This document shows positions 2,797 through 16,251 of a stretch of 32,432 nt of DNA, piece after piece; within the stretch, counting starts at the first letter, position 1; each line of letters begins with the position of its first letter. The notes under the pieces were generated by a model, which was given only the letters and a program-made list of their open reading frames with translations, ran no database searches and had not been told where the DNA came from. Location of the stretch: IMG/VR virus record IMGVR_UViG_3300045999_007603, positions 1-32,432 of that record; one strand, written 5' to 3'. This stretch comes from a virus. A program made the translations under genes and the position numbers.

Positions 2797-3744
2797 GTGA
2801 CGCGCTACGCCCGCTCGCCCGTGGTGGTGGTGCCCGTCGGCGATCTGCACGTCGGCAGCAGCGTCGCGCTGTGCCCGGCGCATGGCGTCGTCCTCGAGGA
2901 CGGCGGGCGATACATGCCCAACGAAGCGCAGCGCTGGCTGTGGGAGCGGTGGCTCGACCTGGTGGCCCGCGTCCGCGAGCTTCGGCGGCGCCGGTATCAC
3001 GTGGTGCTGGTGTCGCTGGGTGAATTCATCGACGGGCGGCATCACGAATCGACCCAATTGCTCTCGCAGGCGCCCGAGATACAGGCATCCGCCGCGCTCG
3101 ACGTTCTGCAGCCGATGGTGGCGCTCGCGCATGAGATTTACGTCGTGCGCGGGACGGAGGCGCACAGTGGGAAAGGCGCGGCGTCGGACTATTCCATCGG
3201 CCGCGAAATCGGCGCACGCCGCGATCCGTCTACCGGCATGGCGGCCTGGTATCACCTCCTCCTTGACGTGGCCGGCGTCCATTTCGATATCGCTCACCAC
3301 GTCGGCGGCGGCGGCGACGATCCCAGGCTGTACGGCGGCGCGATCCGCCGCGAAACCGCCGCCATGCTCATGGAGCGCCCGGACACGCACATCGTGCTGC
3401 GTGGGCACGTGCACCGTTTCGCCGACACCGGCGATGCGTTTCCCACCGCGTGGGGAGCGGTTGTGCCAGCGTGGCAACTCAAAACCGCGTTCACCCACCG
3501 CGTCACGCGGCGGGAATATTTCAGCGTCGGCACATGGCTGATCGAGCTGCATAGGGAGGGACAGTGGGAAAAGACAAGGCTGATGTGGAGCGTGCCCGAG
3601 GCTCCGCGCATCGTGTCGAGCGCTTCGACGTTGCGCGGCTCCTCGCAATCGCTGACGAGTACGCCAACGACCGGCCGCGAGAAAACGAATTCGCCACGAC
3701 GTGGTTCGCCAAAGCGAAAGGCTGGACCTACGAAAGGGCAATGA
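2797..3744 (+). CDS. Calcineurin-like metallophosphoesterase
   Basis: 315 residues. The metallophosphoesterase motifs appear in order: GDLHVG (D16, H18), GEFIDGRHH, VRGTEAH, IAHHVGG and RGHVHRF. Two positions deviate from the textbook family: the second motif has Glu where GD is usual, and the GNHD motif reads GTEAH. The DxH, HH and GHVH metal ligands are kept, so a hydrolase acting on phosphoesters (nucleic acid or nucleotide) is plausible. The GTG start follows a purine-rich GGGGGCAG. The final 60 residues lie in the overlap with the next gene and are low-complexity Ser/Thr/Arg, looking like read-through of the other gene's frame rather than a folded domain. First gene of a short rightward run. 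Confidence 0.85.
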   Translation: MTRYARSPVVVVPVGDLHVGSSVALCPAHGVVLEDGGRYMPNEAQRWLWERWLDLVARVRELRRRRYHVVLVSLGEFIDGRHHESTQLLSQAPEIQASAALDVLQPMVALAHEIYVVRGTEAHSGKGAASDYSIGREIGARRDPSTGMAAWYHLLLDVAGVHFDIAHHVGGGGDDPRLYGGAIRRETAAMLMERPDTHIVLRGHVHRFADTGDAFPTAWGAVVPAWQLKTAFTHRVTRREYFSVGTWLIELHREGQWEKTRLMWSVPEAPRIVSSASTLRGSSQSLTSTPTTGREKTNSPRRGSPKRKAGPTKGQ

Positions 3745-3833
3745 AAACGCTGCGCCGCATGGAATCCGACGGCGTCGTGACGTCGCGTCGCGCCGGGCAC
3801 ATCACGCTGTGGCGCATGTCAGAGGGCGAGTGA
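3564..3833 (+). CDS. Small winged-helix-like protein
   Basis: 89 residues. The second half (FAKAKGWTYERAMKTLRRMESDGVVTSRRAGHITLWR) has the length and hydrophobic pattern of a winged helix: a recognition helix followed by a two-strand wing, similar to small MarR/GntR-type or replication-associated wHTH proteins. The start is GTG 3564, five nt after AGGGAGGG, which fixes it inside the metallophosphoesterase gene. It overlaps that gene by 181 nt in another frame. Its stop overlaps the GTG of the next gene (GTGA). DNA binding is inferred from pattern only. Confidence 0.75.
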   Translation: MGKDKADVERARGSAHRVERFDVARLLAIADEYANDRPRENEFATTWFAKAKGWTYERAMKTLRRMESDGVVTSRRAGHITLWRMSEGE

Positions 3834-4400: not shown

Positions 4401-4407
4401 GTATACT
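4381..4407 (+). promoter_or_regulatory. Candidate promoter of the lysis cassette and leader RNA
   Basis: TATACT (4402-4407) is a good -10. The best -35 is TTGAGC (4381-4386) with a short 15-nt spacer; TTGACG at 4372 is too far from TATACT. The segment GCGATA..CTTTGC..AGC around it resembles the sequence around the -10 of the tail cassette promoter at 15645-15660, which supports a shared function. Predicted start is near 4414. Confidence 0.5.
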
Positions 4408-4413
4408 TTGCGC

Positions 4414-4594
4414 AGCGGGCGCGCCCAAACGCCGACGTCATGCGTCGGAATGCTGTAGGGGCGCCGGCTTATATCCGCCCGGACTCGGGGTACGCATCCT
4501 GTCGAGGGCAGCTCGGCGTCGGAAACGGCGCCGAGACAACTACATACCAACCGCTTGTGCGGCACTCAATTGTGAGTGCCGCTTTTTTGTTTTC
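4414..4594 (+). ncRNA. Candidate structured RNA or long structured leader
   Basis: About 180 nt without a convincing ORF between a promoter and an intrinsic terminator. Elements seen: a GGGCGCGCCC palindrome (4417-4426); hairpin CCGACG/CGTCGG (4432-4437 with 4443-4448, loop TCATG); possible GGGCG/CGCCC stem (4459-4463 with 4476-4480); a perfect 10-bp hairpin at 4512-4535 (one G-T pair) closed by a GAAA tetraloop; then the terminator hairpin at 4559-4582. ATGCGT (4440-4445) could also pair with ACGCAT (4492-4497), an alternative fold. It could be a stand-alone phage sRNA, or a regulated leader of the lysis genes. I do not recognise a known RNA family. Confidence 0.45.
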
Positions 4595-4596
4595 CC
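4544..4596 (+). terminator. Repeated terminator element, copy A (upstream of lysis genes)
   Basis: Conserved flank ATACCAACCGCTTG, then stem GCGGCACTCA (4559-4568), loop ATTG, TGAGTGCCGC (4573-4582), T6, then GTTTTCCC. The same element occurs at 8727-8779 and 15664-15714. The flank CCGC (4551-4554) can pair with GCGG (4559-4562), the first bases of the terminator stem, though this 4-bp alternative is weak. A good ribosome site (GTGGAGGTGAC) for the next gene follows at once. Confidence 0.85.
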
Positions 4597-4607
4597 GTGG
4601 AGGTGAC

Positions 4608-4913
4608 ATGGATCTGATCTCGATACTCACATGGCTCGCAGGGGCCGGCGTCGCTGCGGTGAGCAGCTTTGTGCTTGACCGGCTGCAGGGTTTCGCGCAG
4701 CTGTCGGCATCCGGCAAGCAGCTGGTCGCCGTCGCCGTCGCCGTCATTCTCGGCGCGCTGTCGATGGCCGCGCGCGACTGGCTGAGCGCGAATCCGACGG
4801 CTGCGCAGGGCATCGAGCCGTACGCCCAGCTCATCGTCACCGGCGTGATGCTCATCGTGCAGCAGGTCACGCACGGCGCACGGCGCGCCGCAGCGGAGGC
4901 GGGCAATGGCTGA
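4608..4913 (+). CDS. Holin-like membrane protein
   Basis: 101 residues with GGAGGTGAC before ATG 4608. Three hydrophobic segments are visible: residues about 3-23 (LISILTWLAGAGVAAVSSFV), about 37-54 (GKQLVAVAVAVILGALSMAA) and about 72-88 (YAQLIVTGVMLIVQQ), and the C-terminus is basic (HGARRAAAEAG). Size, membrane segments, charged tail and position before the lysin fit a holin that permeabilises the inner membrane at lysis. Family assignment is not certain. Confidence 0.7.
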   Translation: MDLISILTWLAGAGVAAVSSFVLDRLQGFAQLSASGKQLVAVAVAVILGALSMAARDWLSANPTAAQGIEPYAQLIVTGVMLIVQQVTHGARRAAAEAGNG

Positions 4914-4995
4914 CCTGTTCTGGATTCCGCTGCTGCTGATCGCCATCTACGCCATCGTCATCTGCATCGAACCGGGAGGGCCTCGCCATGGCTGA
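4906..4995 (+). CDS. 29-residue single-pass membrane peptide
   Basis: ATG 4906, eight nt after GGAGG; reads MADLFWIPLLLIAIYAIVIC followed by IEPGGPRHG and TGA. One hydrophobic helix (residues about 5-21) makes up most of it. It overlaps the end of the upstream holin-like gene by 8 nt and the start of the BhlA-like gene by 8 nt, so the three are tightly coupled. It begins with the same MAD as the downstream gene. The ribosome site, position and composition favour a real gene; a holin accessory, pinholin or holin inhibitor would fit. Confidence 0.6.
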   Translation: MADLFWIPLLLIAIYAIVICIEPGGPRHG

Positions 4996-5251
4996 CGTGT
5001 CGCTGCTGCAGCTGCTGACCAGTGGCGGCGTGCCGGCGATGTTCGCGGCGCTCCTGATCTGGACGCTGAAAACCTCCGCCGACCGCGAAGAGCGCAATTT
5101 GAAAGTGTCAGCCGATCGCGAGGAGCGCCTCATGCGTCGGGAGGAAATGGTCCTGGCCAAGCTCGACGAGATGTCCAAAACCATTCTTCGCATCAGCACG
5201 CAGCTGGACAGCCTCGCGCGCGAAATCGACCGCATGCGCGGGGAGGATTAA
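4988..5251 (+). CDS. BhlA/UviB-type holin-like protein
   Basis: 87 residues. An N-terminal membrane segment (LLTSGGVPAMFAALLIWTL, residues about 9-27) is followed by KTSADREERNLKVSADREER and an amphipathic charged helix (LAKLDEMSKTILRISTQLDSL). The order, one TM then TLKTS.REE then a coiled coil, is the signature layout of the BhlA bacteriocin/holin family. The ATG follows GGGAGGG; the stop codon TAA overlaps the ATG of the lysin gene by one base. Confidence 0.8.
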   Translation: MADVSLLQLLTSGGVPAMFAALLIWTLKTSADREERNLKVSADREERLMRREEMVLAKLDEMSKTILRISTQLDSLAREIDRMRGED

Positions 5252-6894
5252 TGGGCGTCCCTTACGTCAATCAGATCGACAACGCGCCGCGCCGCAACGA
5301 CTGCGGGCCGGCATGCGTAGCCATGCTCGCCGGCGCCGTCAAGCCCGGCCTCGCCACATCGGCCACGGTCACCGACTTGTCGACGCACTTCGACGCCTCG
5401 CAGGACGGCACCACGCAGGCCGACCTGCTGCGCATGGGCGACCACGTCGGCGTGTCGCTGCGCGCTACCACCACGGCCGAATACCCCTACATCGCCCTTG
5501 TCGACTACCGCATGCTGCCGTTGCGCTACCAGGCTGGCGGCGATTTCGCTCACTGGATCGTGCGCCTGTCGGCCACGTCGTACCACGACCCGCTTTGGCG
5601 CGGCGCCGACGGCGCATCTCTCCCCGCGGCTGCCGGCGTGCTCGACGCCGCCGAATCAGGCGCGCGCCGCTGGTCGTCGATCGTCCCCAATCGCGTCACT
5701 CTCAAAAACCCTATGACTACACCCGCACCAACCTCGGGCAAGGCCCGCATCAAATCGACCCCGTACAGCACGTGGAAGCTGCGCAAAGCGCCTTCGACGT
5801 CTTCCTCCTCGGAAACCGGTTACTGGCTGTCGGCCGGGCAGGAGATCGACGTCCTCGATGTCGCCAGCGGCGACGGCTGGCAATGGGCGCGTGTGCGCAA
5901 CACGAGCGGCGGCGCCGTCGTCCAGGACGGCTACGTGCGCCGTGACGCGTGGGAGTGGGTGTCGACTCCGCCGCCGCCGCCGCCGCCACCAACGACTCGC
6001 CCGCCGCTGCTGCTGGGTGTCCACTTTCACGATTCGCGCGGCCACCATTACGCGCAGGGGTTTCTCTCTGCAGGCGGCATGGGCGCGACGATCATGGAAG
6101 GCTACACGTTCGCTTCGCAGCTCAAGATCGGCTGGCCAAAGGCCGCGATCTTTGTCCGGCGCTGGTGGCCGGGAAACTACCTCCCTCCGGTTGATCTCAA
6201 CCTGCTGTGGGGAGCGGAAGACCCGAAGCTGATTTACCTGTCGCCCATCAACGAGGCGGACTGCATCGGGCAGGACATGCAGGACATCCGGCCGCGAGCA
6301 GAATACGACGCGGCAATGGCGCGTCTTGTCAAGGAGCGCACGGGCGGGCGCTTCAATGCATCGACCGGCCGATGGGAGGGCGGCGCGATCTATGTCGCCA
6401 GCCCGTACAGCATGGGCACGCCCGACTTCACGCGGCAGGACGTGCGCGACCAGCTGCGGCAGCATCTCGCGCCGCACTACAACAGCAACCTGCTTGCCTA
6501 CGGCTATCACAGCTACAGCCCGGACCCGGCGCACATCGATCGCCCGAGCGAGTGGCCGTGGTACGAGCGCCGCTGCGACTTCCTGTTTCAGAAGTGCGGC
6601 TTCAACCCGGACCCGTCGCTTGCCGGCGTGTACATGGACGAAACCGGCGTCGACACCATGGGACGCGGCGGGTATCTCGCGTGGAACATGGACGGCGCTG
6701 CGGTCGCCGCGCATCTGCGCAAGCTGTGCGACGCGCTGCGCAGCCCGCTCGTCGTCAACGGCAAGTCGTACCCGTCGCCCTACCGTGCGGCGACGGTGTT
6801 CGCCGCCACCGACGACGTGCAGCGCTGGGGCGGATACCGCGTGCAGGGGTTCCTCGGCGAGATCGCCCAGGTCGCGCAGGAGGCGCTGCGGTGA
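5251..6894 (+). CDS. Modular lysin: C39-like peptidase, SH3b, TIM-barrel glycosidase
   Basis: 547 residues. Residues 1-120 look like a papain-fold C39-type peptidase: Gln8, NDCGPACVAML with Cys18, AHWIV with His101, and HDP with Asp113. Residues about 163-236 match a bacterial SH3 wall-binding domain (LRKAPS..., IDVLDVASGDGWQWARV, DGYVRRD). A run of eight prolines (about 240-247) links to a 300-residue domain that looks like a clan GH-A TIM barrel, with the Asn-Glu pair in LSPINEAD (Glu335) as likely acid/base and GVYMDETG (Glu464) as likely nucleophile. No signal peptide is visible, consistent with holin-dependent release. It would cut both peptide and glycan parts of the wall. Catalytic assignments are inferred from motifs. 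Confidence 0.8.
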   Translation: MGVPYVNQIDNAPRRNDCGPACVAMLAGAVKPGLATSATVTDLSTHFDASQDGTTQADLLRMGDHVGVSLRATTTAEYPYIALVDYRMLPLRYQAGGDFAHWIVRLSATSYHDPLWRGADGASLPAAAGVLDAAESGARRWSSIVPNRVTLKNPMTTPAPTSGKARIKSTPYSTWKLRKAPSTSSSSETGYWLSAGQEIDVLDVASGDGWQWARVRNTSGGAVVQDGYVRRDAWEWVSTPPPPPPPPTTRPPLLLGVHFHDSRGHHYAQGFLSAGGMGATIMEGYTFASQLKIGWPKAAIFVRRWWPGNYLPPVDLNLLWGAEDPKLIYLSPINEADCIGQDMQDIRPRAEYDAAMARLVKERTGGRFNASTGRWEGGAIYVASPYSMGTPDFTRQDVRDQLRQHLAPHYNSNLLAYGYHSYSPDPAHIDRPSEWPWYERRCDFLFQKCGFNPDPSLAGVYMDETGVDTMGRGGYLAWNMDGAAVAAHLRKLCDALRSPLVVNGKSYPSPYRAATVFAATDDVQRWGGYRVQGFLGEIAQVAQEALR

Positions 6895-7485: not shown

Positions 7486-8659
7486 CTGGCTCAGTGCCGG
7501 TCGCCGCTGGCGCAAAACGACGATGGTCATGTCCATCGCCGTTGAGCATGCCGTGCAGGGCGCGCAGATCATGTGGTGTGCGCCGACGTATGAGCAGGCG
7601 CGCGTGGCGATGGAGGAGACGGCCTACGCTGCGCGGGACATTGCCGTGTTCAACGAGTCGCGCATGATCGCGACATTTCCGAGCGGCGGCCGCATCGCGT
7701 ATCGATCGCTGCAGAAGCCCGACAACGTGCGCAGCTTTACCGCACACGGCATCGTCATCGACGAAGTAGCCGATGTGCCAGAGCAGGCATGGACGGCCGT
7801 GCTGCGGCCGACGCTCATCAGCACGCGCGGCTGGATGTGGGGCATAGGCACACCGAAAGGACGAAACTGGTTTTACGCGCAGTGGCATCGCGCAGCAGAG
7901 CGCGGTGATGCGGCTGCGTTTCGCGCGCCCACCCTCGGCGCCGAAATTGTCGGCGGCCGTTTGGTGCGCCGGCCGCACGCGCTCGAGAATCCGACGGTCG
8001 ACTGGGACGAGATTGAGCAGCTCCACCGCACGATGCCGGAGTATGAATTCCGCCAGGAGATTCTGGCGGAGTTTGTCGAGGTCGGCGGCGGCGTGTTTCG
8101 CGGGGTGCGCGACGCTGTGCGTGCGGCGCCGATGATCGACCACCGCCACACGCACGTCGCCGGCCTCGACTGGGCGCTCAACTACGACTACACAGTGCTC
8201 ACGATCATCGACGCCACGACCGGCGCGGTCGTGCACGTGGATCGCTTCAACGGCGCCGAATACGCCATGCAGCGCGCGCGCATCGCTGCCGCGTGCCAGC
8301 GCTTCCGCGTCGACGTGCTGCTGGCCGAGGCAAACGCAATGGGGAAGCCCAACAACGACATGCTGCGCGACGAGGGCATCCCCGTGCGCGATTTCACCAC
8401 CACGTCATCGACGAAAAGCGAAATCATCCGCCGTCTCGCTGCTGCGTTCGAGCAGCGGCGGCTGACGCTGCCGCCTGACGACGTGATGATCGCCGAGCTC
8501 GAGGCCTACGAGGCCAAGCGCCTCGAGTCCGGAGCGATCCGATACAGCGCTCCCGACGGCATGCACGACGACACCGTGATGTCTCTGGCGCTGGCGTGGT
8601 ACGCCGCGGACACGACGACGGCGGCCGTGGCGCCGATGATCGCGCGGTCGCCGTTTTGA
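7418..8659 (+). CDS. terL: Terminase large subunit
   Basis: 413 residues. ATPase part: Walker A variant GRRWRKTT (28-35), adenine-contacting Gln12, Walker B IVIDE (Asp115, Glu116) and the coupling region GTPKGRNWFY. RNase H-like nuclease part: GLDWALNYD (Asp251), LLAEANAMG (Glu304) and MHDDTVMSLALA (Asp384, Asp385). It drives DNA into the prohead and cuts the concatemer. The ATG at 7418 has a poor ribosome site but begins the conserved LPLPHPGQ..V segment, so initiation is probably coupled to terS. Somewhat short for the family but complete in motifs. Confidence 0.95.
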   Translation: MKLTLPLPHPGQAHVMRRAKRFNWLSAGRRWRKTTMVMSIAVEHAVQGAQIMWCAPTYEQARVAMEETAYAARDIAVFNESRMIATFPSGGRIAYRSLQKPDNVRSFTAHGIVIDEVADVPEQAWTAVLRPTLISTRGWMWGIGTPKGRNWFYAQWHRAAERGDAAAFRAPTLGAEIVGGRLVRRPHALENPTVDWDEIEQLHRTMPEYEFRQEILAEFVEVGGGVFRGVRDAVRAAPMIDHRHTHVAGLDWALNYDYTVLTIIDATTGAVVHVDRFNGAEYAMQRARIAAACQRFRVDVLLAEANAMGKPNNDMLRDEGIPVRDFTTTSSTKSEIIRRLAAAFEQRRLTLPPDDVMIAELEAYEAKRLESGAIRYSAPDGMHDDTVMSLALAWYAADTTTAAVAPMIARSPF

Positions 8660-8661
8660 CG

Positions 8662-8713
8662 GCTATGCACGCGTGTATGGTGCGTGTATATGCGCGTGCA
8701 TAGCTGTTACAAT
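8662..8713 (+). promoter_or_regulatory. Extended -10 promoter with operator-like repeats, capsid cassette
   Basis: TGT TACAAT (8705-8713) is an extended -10; no -35 is seen. Directly upstream is a 12-bp perfect inverted repeat, GCTATGCACGCG (8662-8673) with CGCGTGCATAGC (8693-8704), and inside it a direct repeat of GCGTGTAT (8671-8678 and 8682-8689) with an 11-bp period. An activator or antiterminator-loading factor binding here is likely. The predicted start is near 8720. Confidence 0.6.
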
Positions 8714-8726
8714 CACGCGCAACCAA

Positions 8727-8779
8727 ATACCAACCGCTTGGGCGGCACTCACACAGAGTGCCGCCTTTTTTGTTTTCCC
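8727..8779 (+). terminator. Repeated terminator element, copy B (upstream of capsid gene)
   Basis: ATACCAACCGCTTGG, then GGCGGCACTC (8741-8750), loop ACACA, GAGTGCCGCC (8756-8765), T6, GTTTTCCC. Compared with copies A and C the stem has gained a G-C pair at its base and the loop has changed while the stem stays perfect, which argues that the RNA structure is what is kept. It starts only about 7 nt after the predicted transcription start. Confidence 0.85.
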
Positions 8780-8787
8780 TACACCAC

Positions 8788-11076
8788 ATGGACAAGCGCA
8801 AGCATCCCACCGACCAGCGCCAGCGCGTGCGCATCCGCGAGGCCGTCGACGTGATCCGAGGCGAGATCGTCGAGGCTTCCGACGGACAGCGCAGCCGGCG
8901 CATCGTGATTCGCGAAGCGCTCACGGCCGGCGTGGTCAACCGGAACGGACGGCGGTACACCGAGCAGGCGGTTCGCGCCGCGGTGCAGGAGCTGCAGCCG
9001 AAACTCCGCGAAAGCGCGGGGCAAGGGCGGGCGATCCTCCACACCGCAGACGGCGACCCGCTCGTCGGCGAAGCAGACCATCCGAGCGACAAGGGCGGGC
9101 GCCCTGCGCTGCTGGAAACGGTCGTCGTATGGACGGACGTCGCATATGACGAGGCGTCGCGCGCGGTTTCCCTCACGGGCACCATCGCGGACACCCAGCG
9201 CGGACGGGACATCCAGGCACTTGCCGATATCGGGCTGCTGCCCGGCGGAAGCCTGCGCGGGAATGGCATCTCGCAGGTCGTCGACTTCGGCGAAGGCCAA
9301 GTTGAGGAGGTCGTGGAGCTTCATCTCACCGGCTACGACCTGGTGCTCACGCCGTCGTTCCAGAACACGGCCGTGATCGAGAGCAAGCAGGACGCACTGA
9401 TTCAGCCCGCGATTCAGCGGGAGGAGAAACCACAGATGGACATCGAGACCGTTCGCAAGGCGTTGGGCCTTGCCGAGTCCGCCACCGAGGCGGACATTCT
9501 GTCGGCTGCGGCGCGCGCGCGTGAGGCCGCCGTGCAGCTGGAAGAGACCAAGAAGCGCGATGCGCTGACGCGCGCCATCGACGAGGCCTGCAAGGGCCTG
9601 CCGTACGACGCCGCGCTCAACGCGCAGTTCCGCGATGAGCTCGCCGAGGACGCAGCCGATGCGTCGGCCGTCGCCGCTCGCGCGAACAAGCTCCGCAAGC
9701 GCTACGATCAGCTGGCCGCCGCGTCGGCGCTGAAGTCGCAGGGCTACAGCGGCCCGCTCGCGGGCATCCAGGTGGCGCCGGTGTTCGAGAAGGAAACCGG
9801 GCAGCCGGCCTACGCGCGCTTGTCGCATGACCTCGCCGAGAGCGTGATGCAGCATCGCGGCGGCCAGCTGTTTAACGCTGCTTCGCCGCGCACCGCCAAC
9901 GAGCGCGTCGCCGCGGCCGTGCTGAAGCGCTTCGATGAGCTGCACGGGGCGCAGCTGCAGCGCGAGGCGCAGCTGTACGCCGAAGCACACACGGCCACCG
10001 ATCTCACGCTGCCGTACACGATCAGCCGCACGATCAACAGCGCGGTTTTCCCGTCTCTCGTCGCAACGAGCGTCTTTGACACGGCGCTGATGCAGAACAG
10101 CCCGGAGTACCTGTACTACGAGTCGTACGCCGAGGAGACGGGCCTCACGGCTACGGTGACCGATGAGGTTGTCGCGGCGCCGGCCACGCTCGGCAACACG
10201 AGCGCGCTCGCCGCGCAGCGCGTGATCCCGGGCACGGTCGTCGTGACCAACAGCGCCGGAAGCACGACCTACACCGAGGGCACTGACTACACCGTCGATT
10301 ACGCCAACGGCCTGGTGTTCTTTCCGGCGTCGGGCGGCGCCATCACGGCGTCGCAGTCGCTCAAGATTGACTACCAGTACAAGGCGATCCGCAAGGGCGA
10401 GAACGCCGCGATCGAGCGCTCGAAGAACACGCTGTCGCGCATCTCGATCGAGGCGAAGGCCGACCGCCTCGCCGTCGAGATCACCAACGAGGCCGTGGTG
10501 TTCGGCCGCTCGCAGCTGGGCTATGACGTGGCGGCTCGCGCCGTTGCGAACATGACCAACGAAATCAACCGGATCATTGATCAGGGCCTGATTCGTCTGG
10601 CCATTCAGGCCGTCAAGGCGATTGCCTCGAACAGCGGCGGCACGTGGACCGTCGGCAGCACGCCCGACTACAGCGTCGGCGTGAGCACGATCGGCAAGGC
10701 CAAGGTCAAGGTGCTCAATCGCAACTATCAGCCGACGTTCGCGCTGATGAGTGCGACCAACAGTGATTTGATCGCCAACTGGACGGGCTTCTCGGCGTCG
10801 GGCCTGCGCCCGGACGGCGCGATCAACCCGGCGGGCTTCGTCGGCCGCGTCAAGGGCCTCGATGTGTTCGAGACCACGCAGATGACGGACACCGAGATCA
10901 TCGTGGGCAACCGCGAGCTGGTGATGTTCCGCATCTTCCAGCCGCTGCTGGTCAAGGGGCCGTTCCCGTCCTACGACTCGAACAAGCTCAAGGCCAACGA
11001 CCAGTGGTACATCGAGGGCTTCAACGCCAGCGCCGCGCCTGTCCCGCAGAAGGGCGCCTACATGGTCGTGGCGTAG
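8788..11076 (+). CDS. Prohead protease-scaffold-major capsid fusion protein
   Basis: 762 residues. Residues about 25-205 match a T4 gp21-type prohead serine protease: TAGVVNRNGRRY, VGEADHP (His98), GGSLRGNGIS (Ser155) and YDLVLTPSF. Residues about 217-320 are charged and helical (ARAREAAVQLEETKKRDALTRA), as in a scaffold or delta domain. From about 330 an HK97-like capsid protein follows (ALMQNSPEYLYYESY..., SRISIEAKADRLAVEITNEA, IRLAIQAVKAIA). A beta-rich insert at about 470-532 (VVVTNSAGSTTYTEGTDY...GGAITASQSLKIDYQY) resembles Ig-like add-on domains. No Shine-Dalgarno precedes ATG 8788. The protease would cut itself and the scaffold away during maturation. There is an internal start candidate at 9436. 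Confidence 0.88.
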   Translation: MDKRKHPTDQRQRVRIREAVDVIRGEIVEASDGQRSRRIVIREALTAGVVNRNGRRYTEQAVRAAVQELQPKLRESAGQGRAILHTADGDPLVGEADHPSDKGGRPALLETVVVWTDVAYDEASRAVSLTGTIADTQRGRDIQALADIGLLPGGSLRGNGISQVVDFGEGQVEEVVELHLTGYDLVLTPSFQNTAVIESKQDALIQPAIQREEKPQMDIETVRKALGLAESATEADILSAAARAREAAVQLEETKKRDALTRAIDEACKGLPYDAALNAQFRDELAEDAADASAVAARANKLRKRYDQLAAASALKSQGYSGPLAGIQVAPVFEKETGQPAYARLSHDLAESVMQHRGGQLFNAASPRTANERVAAAVLKRFDELHGAQLQREAQLYAEAHTATDLTLPYTISRTINSAVFPSLVATSVFDTALMQNSPEYLYYESYAEETGLTATVTDEVVAAPATLGNTSALAAQRVIPGTVVVTNSAGSTTYTEGTDYTVDYANGLVFFPASGGAITASQSLKIDYQYKAIRKGENAAIERSKNTLSRISIEAKADRLAVEITNEAVVFGRSQLGYDVAARAVANMTNEINRIIDQGLIRLAIQAVKAIASNSGGTWTVGSTPDYSVGVSTIGKAKVKVLNRNYQPTFALMSATNSDLIANWTGFSASGLRPDGAINPAGFVGRVKGLDVFETTQMTDTEIIVGNRELVMFRIFQPLLVKGPFPSYDSNKLKANDQWYIEGFNASAAPVPQKGAYMVVA
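9417..9438 (+). promoter_or_regulatory. Candidate internal ribosome site and start inside the capsid fusion gene
   Basis: GGGAGGAG followed by AAACCACAG and ATG at 9436, in frame, exactly at the boundary between the protease and scaffold parts. Initiation here would give a 546-residue scaffold-capsid protein without protease, with a much better ribosome site than the annotated ATG 8788. This matches the known logic of nested protease/scaffold genes (lambda C/Nu3). Confidence 0.55.
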
Positions 11077-15640: not shown

Positions 15641-15651
15641 CGTGCGATAAT
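15618..15651 (+). promoter_or_regulatory. Extended -10 promoter with inverted repeat, tail cassette
   Basis: TGC GATAAT (15643-15651) is an extended -10 overlapping the end of the tail-terminator gene. Just upstream lies an inverted repeat ACGTCAC (15618-15624) with GTGACGT (15637-15643), whose 12-nt loop is a direct repeat of GCGGCT. The right arm ends at the TG of the -10, the same geometry as at the capsid promoter. Predicted start near 15658, about 6 nt before the repeated terminator. Confidence 0.55.
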
Positions 15652-15663
15652 CTTTGCAGCTGA

Positions 15664-15714
15664 ATACCAACCGCTTGTGCGGCACTCAATTGCGAGTGCC
15701 GCTTTTTGTTTTCC
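15664..15714 (+). terminator. Repeated terminator element, copy C (upstream of major tail gene)
   Basis: ATACCAACCGCTTGT, GCGGCACTC (15679-15687), loop AATTGC, GAGTGCCGC (15694-15702), T5, GTTTTCC. Nearly identical to copy A over its full length. A strong ribosome site, GAAGGAGGACCACAC, for the major tail protein follows immediately. Confidence 0.85.
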
Positions 15715-15729
15715 GAAGGAGGACCACAC

Positions 15730-16251
15730 ATGCCGAGCTGGGGCAACTACCCGTATGGATGCCGCGAGGTGCGCGTGAAGAACGGCGCTGCGGCAAGCGT
15801 GGCCAACAAAGCCGCGCAGACGCTCAAATTCAAGGAGACGATCGCGTCGGCCAACTTGATGGGCAACGACCGCGTCGTCGCGACGAAGACGTACCTGACG
15901 CATATGGAGCTCGAGTTCGAGGCCGGCGGAATGGACCTCGACTTCTACGCGGCGGTGACCGGGCGCACGGTGACGACCTCGGGCACCGGCGCCGCCGAGG
16001 TGGCGACGATGCCGATCACCGGCGGGGACTCTTTCCCGTATGTGGCGCTGTATGGAAAGATCCTCGGCGAGGGGTCTGATGACCTGCACGTGAAATTCTT
16101 CAAGTGCAAGGTCACCGAGATCGACGGCGAGTTCAAGGAGGGCGGCTTTTCTGTGAACAAGTGCAAGCTGGTCGCCATCCCGGACAGCAGCTCGTCGGAC
16201 AAGGTCGCCGAAATCGTCGCCAACGAAACGGCAGCGGCGCTCCCGGCGTAG
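15730..16251 (+). CDS. Major tail protein
   Basis: 173 residues; ATG 15730 has the best Shine-Dalgarno in the window (GAAGGAGG), fitting a highly expressed tube protein. The beta-rich pattern (VVATKTYLTHMELEFEAGGMDLDFYAAVTGRTVT... DLHVKFFKCKVTEIDGEFKEGGF) matches siphovirus tube subunits such as those of the lambda gpV/HK97 type, which stack in hexameric rings. The own promoter and position before the tail chaperone and tape measure support this. Confidence 0.85.
   Translation: MPSWGNYPYGCREVRVKNGAAASVANKAAQTLKFKETIASANLMGNDRVVATKTYLTHMELEFEAGGMDLDFYAAVTGRTVTTSGTGAAEVATMPITGGDSFPYVALYGKILGEGSDDLHVKFFKCKVTEIDGEFKEGGFSVNKCKLVAIPDSSSSDKVAEIVANETAAALPA

Follow-up and report, generated by a model that had tools for sequence, protein, structure and literature searches.

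The locus examined here raises the question of what a structured RNA does between a promoter and a terminator-like element in front of a group of putative lysis genes. The material was the IMG/VR record IMGVR_UViG_3300045999_007603 of an uncultured virus, whose complete stretch of 32,432 bases is referred to as the window. A first-pass annotation, made from sequence alone, had reported a structured RNA at 4414-4594, placed between promoter and repeated terminator of a lysis cassette, and had suggested a phage small RNA or a timing device for lysis. In well-studied phages lysis timing is mostly ascribed to holin proteins and late-promoter control; with a conserved RNA located solely before a holin-like gene, the lysis decision would gain a layer of control by RNA.

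Putative lysis genes and repeated late units

The gene downstream of the leader (4608..4913, plus strand) codes for a holin-like protein of 101 aa in which two hydrophobic stretches were recognised by eye; its product matched no PHROG and no Pfam family, and a holin search of viral contigs yielded relatives at 21 viral loci. On the same strand follow the gene of a second small membrane/coiled-coil protein (4988..5251; phrog_2429, bacteriocin production or immunity, E 1.5e-7) and a putative endolysin gene (5251..6894) with a C39-peptidase-like N-terminus (PF03412, E 2e-5). The label of lysis cassette is plausible but weak, given a holin-like product without a family, phrog_2429 and only a C39-peptidase-like domain.

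Three copies of CAACCGCTTGNGCGGCACTCA, each followed by a terminator-like hairpin and a T tract (together the T element), are located at 4548, 8731 and 15668, where 0.02 would be expected by chance, and precede the holin-like, protease-capsid and major tail protein genes. Copy A of the element, CAACTACATACCAACCGCTTGTGCGGC..., covers 4537..4595 on the plus strand with its terminator-like hairpin at 4559-4582. Copies B and C, likewise on the plus strand, consist of a -10 hexamer and the T element with no insert: copy B (8709..8778, -10 TACAAT at 8709-8714) lies 5′ of the protease-capsid gene (8788-11076, one 762-aa ORF matching a head maturation protease PHROG) and copy C (15646..15714, -10 GATAAT at 15646-15651) 5′ of the major tail protein gene (15730-16251, phrog_4971). 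For copy A, TATACT at 4402..4407 (plus strand) was assigned as the -10 of the holin promoter, with a poor -35, and every relative that has a T element or core shows a TATAMT-type hexamer at the corresponding position. Since a strict sigma-70 scan returned no promoter, the promoter calls are based on this corresponding position in relatives and not on consensus. The distance from the -10 to the T element is about 125-130 nt in copy A (4408-4536) versus 6-11 nt in copies B and C, in agreement with the approximately 130 nt of extra leader described earlier.

Two further observations concern the surroundings of copy B. The 762-aa ORF carries protease and capsid domains and an Ig-like-domain match; among named relatives the closest is Virus Rctr41k (46%), and the others are found in MAGs of Anaerolineales/Chloroflexi, where capsid relatives at 35-45% give only a hint of such a host. 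Moreover, an imperfect inverted repeat of 25 nt (80%, 9-nt spacer) at 8654-8712 adjoins the -10 of copy B and spans the -35 region; it looks operator- or terminator-like, and like repeats precede copy B in the related contigs L010 and L011, not in L012.

Within the T element, a small hairpin CCGC-TTGT-GCGG (4551..4562, plus strand) shares its 3′ arm with the 5′ arm of the terminator. Its arms are invariant in 12/12 T-element copies from five phages, with TTGT, TTGG or ACTG as loop, and because the 3′ arm of CCGC-N4-GCGG is part of the terminator stem, small hairpin and terminator are mutually exclusive. Pairing of the terminator hairpin is kept in 11/11 compared sequences, with A-U, G-C and G-U at one pair; covariation in this hairpin was not above that of shuffles (61/500). 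All three T elements of L010 (5140-5220, 9286-9362 and 16155-16237) have the ACTG loop, with TTGT/TTGG elsewhere, and this concerted change suggests either gene conversion or a partner acting in trans. With its repetition and the hairpin arm shared by two stems, the T element represents a second candidate switch for late genes, in phages that have no close cultured relative by DNA sequence.

Structure and conservation of the leader RNA

The predicted fold of the copy A leader comprises three domains, all on the plus strand. The 5′ hairpin domain (4414..4469), which includes the GC palindrome GGGCGCGCCC at 4417-4426, is not conserved and is represented by other hairpins in relatives. The second domain (4477..4509), GCCCGGACUCGGGGUACGCAUCCUGUCGAGGGC, is a core hairpin of 33 nt whose internal loops are invariant and in which two phage lineages differ at two positions at most; it was scored by model R1. 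The third (4512..4535), assigned from sequence and predicted fold, is a 24-nt stem-loop of 10 bp with a GAAA (GNRA) loop. The palindrome and the second hairpin listed in the first-pass annotation are both present, and the stem called perfect does have ten pairs and a GAAA loop, but one pair is U.G. Compared with dinucleotide shuffles, the folding energy reached z -3.1 for 4414-4536, z -2.4 for 4408-4540 and z -4.1 for leader plus terminator; the 33-nt core alone folded no better than shuffles (z about -1). The same leader is carried by L005 and L006, two further assembled contigs of this phage (at least 99.9% identical), and is therefore no assembly artefact. As had been anticipated, no known RNA family was recognised: Rfam 15 gave 0 matches at gathering threshold in the whole window, and the best permissive hits were far below.

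Relatives were gathered by searching viral contigs for terminase and holin. The unit 4477-4536, consisting of the core hairpin and the GNRA-capped hairpin, recurs in six other IMG/VR contigs (L091-L095 and L099), in all six between the -10 and the start codon of the holin-like gene, as GCCCGGACTCGGGGTACGYATCCTGTCRAGGGC, 1-2 nt and then CYCGGCGTCGGMAACGRCGCCGRG. An 18-letter core pattern matched in IMG/VR only these contigs and the present phage, and the unit is absent from both other T-element leaders (copies B and C) of the same genome. Several of the L091-type contigs come from the same metagenomes, are near-identical and were counted as one lineage, so that the comparison is based on two lineages and four distinct sequences including the window. 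The first-pass observation is confirmed: a structured RNA is inserted between promoter and terminator and is conserved before the same gene in other phages; of the interval originally given, 4477-4536 is conserved within the insert, but the 5′ part is freely replaced between phages.

Between the window and the L091 lineage the RNA unit is identical at 54-55/59 positions, the adjoining holin gene at 193-201/288-291 (201/288 alongside 55/59 for the RNA), and the holins of the six contigs are 54% identical to the window holin; the leader upstream of the unit could not be aligned and is at the level of unrelated sequence. The chance of at least 55/59 identities is about 7e-6 at the identity rate of the holin gene and 0.003 at that of the best-conserved neighbouring gene (2802-3787), in which 15/934 windows of 59 nt were as conserved as the RNA unit. 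The unit is far more conserved than the holin gene and, though it codes for no protein, equals the best-conserved protein-coding stretches in conservation. Between L091 and L093 the 5′ hairpin has been swapped (53/69), while the flanks are 94-98% and the holins 98% identical. The pattern in these sequences has three tiers, with an invariant core, a GNRA hairpin that conserves structure, and a replaceable 5′ hairpin.

The substitutions in the homologues suit an RNA. In the GNRA hairpin one U-A pair is replaced by C-G, a compensatory change, U.G is replaced by U-A, and the loop GAAA becomes GCAA; the core differs at one position in its loop and at one beside its stem. A shared coding frame or peptide is excluded by a 1-nt indel in the gap between the hairpins together with the use of a different frame. 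The leader had been considered as coding because 4440-4913 is open in the holin frame, and was rejected as such on the same grounds; this 157-aa ORF is an accident of GC-rich sequence, and gene callers may annotate a long holin from it. Three G.U pairs assign the RNA to the plus strand, and a DNA element on the other strand is less likely, as the G.U pairs would become A.C mismatches. The covariation check of homologous intervals proposed earlier revealed one double change, but the signal was weak (128/500 shuffles as good), because only two lineages are available; the core helix is invariant in all four sequences, with no covariation behind the core fold. Two more specific proposals were not supported. 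The segments ATGCGT (4440-4445) and ACGCAT (4492-4497) match by complementarity, but homologues in which the remainder is retained do not have the partner, and the long-range switch was rejected. Docking of the tetraloop finds no support, given the GCAA loop of the homologues and a leader free of the 11-nt receptor motif (CCUAAG...UAUGG).

Downstream of the unit the two lineages differ. In the present phage a transcript running from promoter to T element would measure about 175 nt, as expected for a free small RNA that acts in trans and is arranged like the 6S RNA of phage lambda. In the L091 lineage there is no terminator after the RNA, and the Shine-Dalgarno sequence and start codon follow directly, so that the same RNA runs into the ribosome-binding site. 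An arrangement of promoter plus terminator is therefore not conserved around the RNA, only the middle 60 nt of the presumed transcript is conserved, and a free RNA, suggested at first with a length of 180 nt, is very improbable. The second lineage without a terminator is the reason why a cis-acting leader was preferred.

A proposed cis-acting leader of the lysis operon

According to the preferred reading, which we hold with somewhat better than even confidence, the lysis-operon mRNA carries in its 5′ untranslated leader a conserved RNA acting in cis, 4477-4536, which would set holin output and lysis time. The unit would be transcribed from the copy A promoter; the 33-nt core with its invariant internal loops would serve as the recognition surface, with a protein, a ligand or RNA polymerase as partner, the conserved internal-loop letters being what makes it a candidate binding site. 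The GNRA hairpin would act as a rigid scaffold, and the mRNA would be capped by the interchangeable 5′ hairpin. Binding of the partner would set the amount of holin mRNA made or translated, and with it lysis time. In the present phage, in which the RNA is stacked on the T element of three late operons, the output could include terminator read-through. Of the proposed timing device, a role in lysis control fits the position of the unit solely at the holin-like gene.

The unit is missing in near relatives. The contigs L010, L011 and L012, whose capsids are 81-82% and terminases 84-95% identical to those of the window, have different holin leaders: that of L010 carries the T element with no insert, and those of L011 and L012 about 45 nt with another hairpin. 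In L027, which is more distant, the leader measures about 85 nt and contains another hairpin. As L010-L012, the nearest phages by capsid and terminase, do without it, the RNA is dispensable; since the holin tree has no resolved branching, gain and loss of the RNA cannot be polarised. The unrelated hairpins lie between -10 and start codon at approximately 1466-1530 in L011, 4813-4870 in L012 and 2135-2257 in L027, and further unrelated holin-leader hairpins were seen at approximately 2150-2240 in L104, 4930-4985 in L106 and 3815-3870 in L032. The more distant phages L036 (500-605 and 2572-2640) and L045 (3343-3420) also have terminator-like hairpins, their stems differing in sequence, with a T-rich tract that ends in GTTTTC a few bases before a gene start. 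Searches for additional homologues yielded nothing convincing by blastn against INPHARED, no further members with model R1 in 0.75 Mb of collected loci, and none with the same model in 400 genomes of the phylum of G011, an empty answer that is weak evidence.

That almost every relative has a strong hairpin of unrelated sequence at this place (L011/L012, L027, L104, L106/L032), and that close relatives swap or lack the unit, would be expected of a generic structured leader, in which hairpins only shield the 5′ end of the mRNA and insulate the ribosome-binding site, and the sequence is conserved by recent common descent or recombination of the lysis module. Recombination of short blocks could indeed mimic conservation of the unit. 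Against this, the internal-loop letters of the core are kept while the holin gene drifts to 69%, whereas a generic hairpin would be expected to drift or to be exchanged like the 5′ hairpin, and we regard the generic leader as unlikely.

The two stem-loops of the unit, 1-2 nt apart and about 60 nt in total, are promoter-proximal and have a terminator at most 25 nt downstream, as would suit a put-like antiterminator, in which the nascent two-hairpin RNA binds RNA polymerase in cis and reads through the T element and later terminators. HK022 put, with about 70 nt and two stem-loops, needs no phage protein (PMC9378689), and searches of the window turned up no known Q family that could take this role. 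In the L091 lineage, however, there is no terminator between RNA and holin gene, and the T element occurs in L010, L011, L012 and L027 unaccompanied by the unit; the put-like mechanism is accordingly judged a little less probable still than the generic leader.

Within the preferred cis-acting reading, the conserved segment is probably a new control element for the time of host killing. We propose more tentatively, and with clearly less than even confidence, that it belongs to an undescribed class of phage regulatory RNAs whose core binds a specific partner and gates holin synthesis, an RNA-based lysis timer; the partner may be a small molecule, a host or phage protein, or RNA polymerase. As a conserved RNA it would offer a small, testable element.

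Comparison with known regulatory systems

Riboswitches and other cis-regulatory RNAs of Rfam share with the unit a conserved 5′ leader and kept internal-loop letters, but no Rfam family matched. The T element resembles the dual-hairpin antiterminators of ANTAR proteins in that a small hairpin shares bases with the terminator stem (PMC3369931). ANTAR targets, however, consist of two small hairpins with hexanucleotide loops, A being first and G fourth (PMC3369931), whereas the T element has one tetraloop hairpin, and no match to PF03861 reached E 1 in the window.

HK022 putL lies just downstream of PL (PMC9378689), and the 60-nt unit starts about 60 nt after the inferred transcription start site. 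Both put and the unit are two adjacent stem-loops near a phage promoter, a likeness of layout. HK022 put precedes early genes and acts on the polymerase of E. coli, whereas the unit precedes lysis genes and is terminator-free in one lineage; read-through at put involves a triplex formed within stem I of the RNA, which contacts the zinc-binding domain of beta′. Antitermination, whether put- or Q-like, is possible but unproven.

In the systems of lambda Q, phage 21 Q and AlpA, a late or lysis promoter is followed by an intrinsic terminator and the lysis genes (PMC7171158, PMC9371919), and the arrangement of promoter, terminator and lysis genes described here resembles this layout. The order of promoter and terminator is found in all three units of -10 and T element, with promoters inferred from sequence. 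PF06530, PF03589 and PF06323 gave no match in the window, where the record may be incomplete and PF06323 matched no control genome either. The known systems need a Q-type protein and a DNA element in the promoter region (PMC7171158, PMC9371919). The present phage differs from lambda Q and AlpA in having three such units per genome and, in addition, the conserved RNA.
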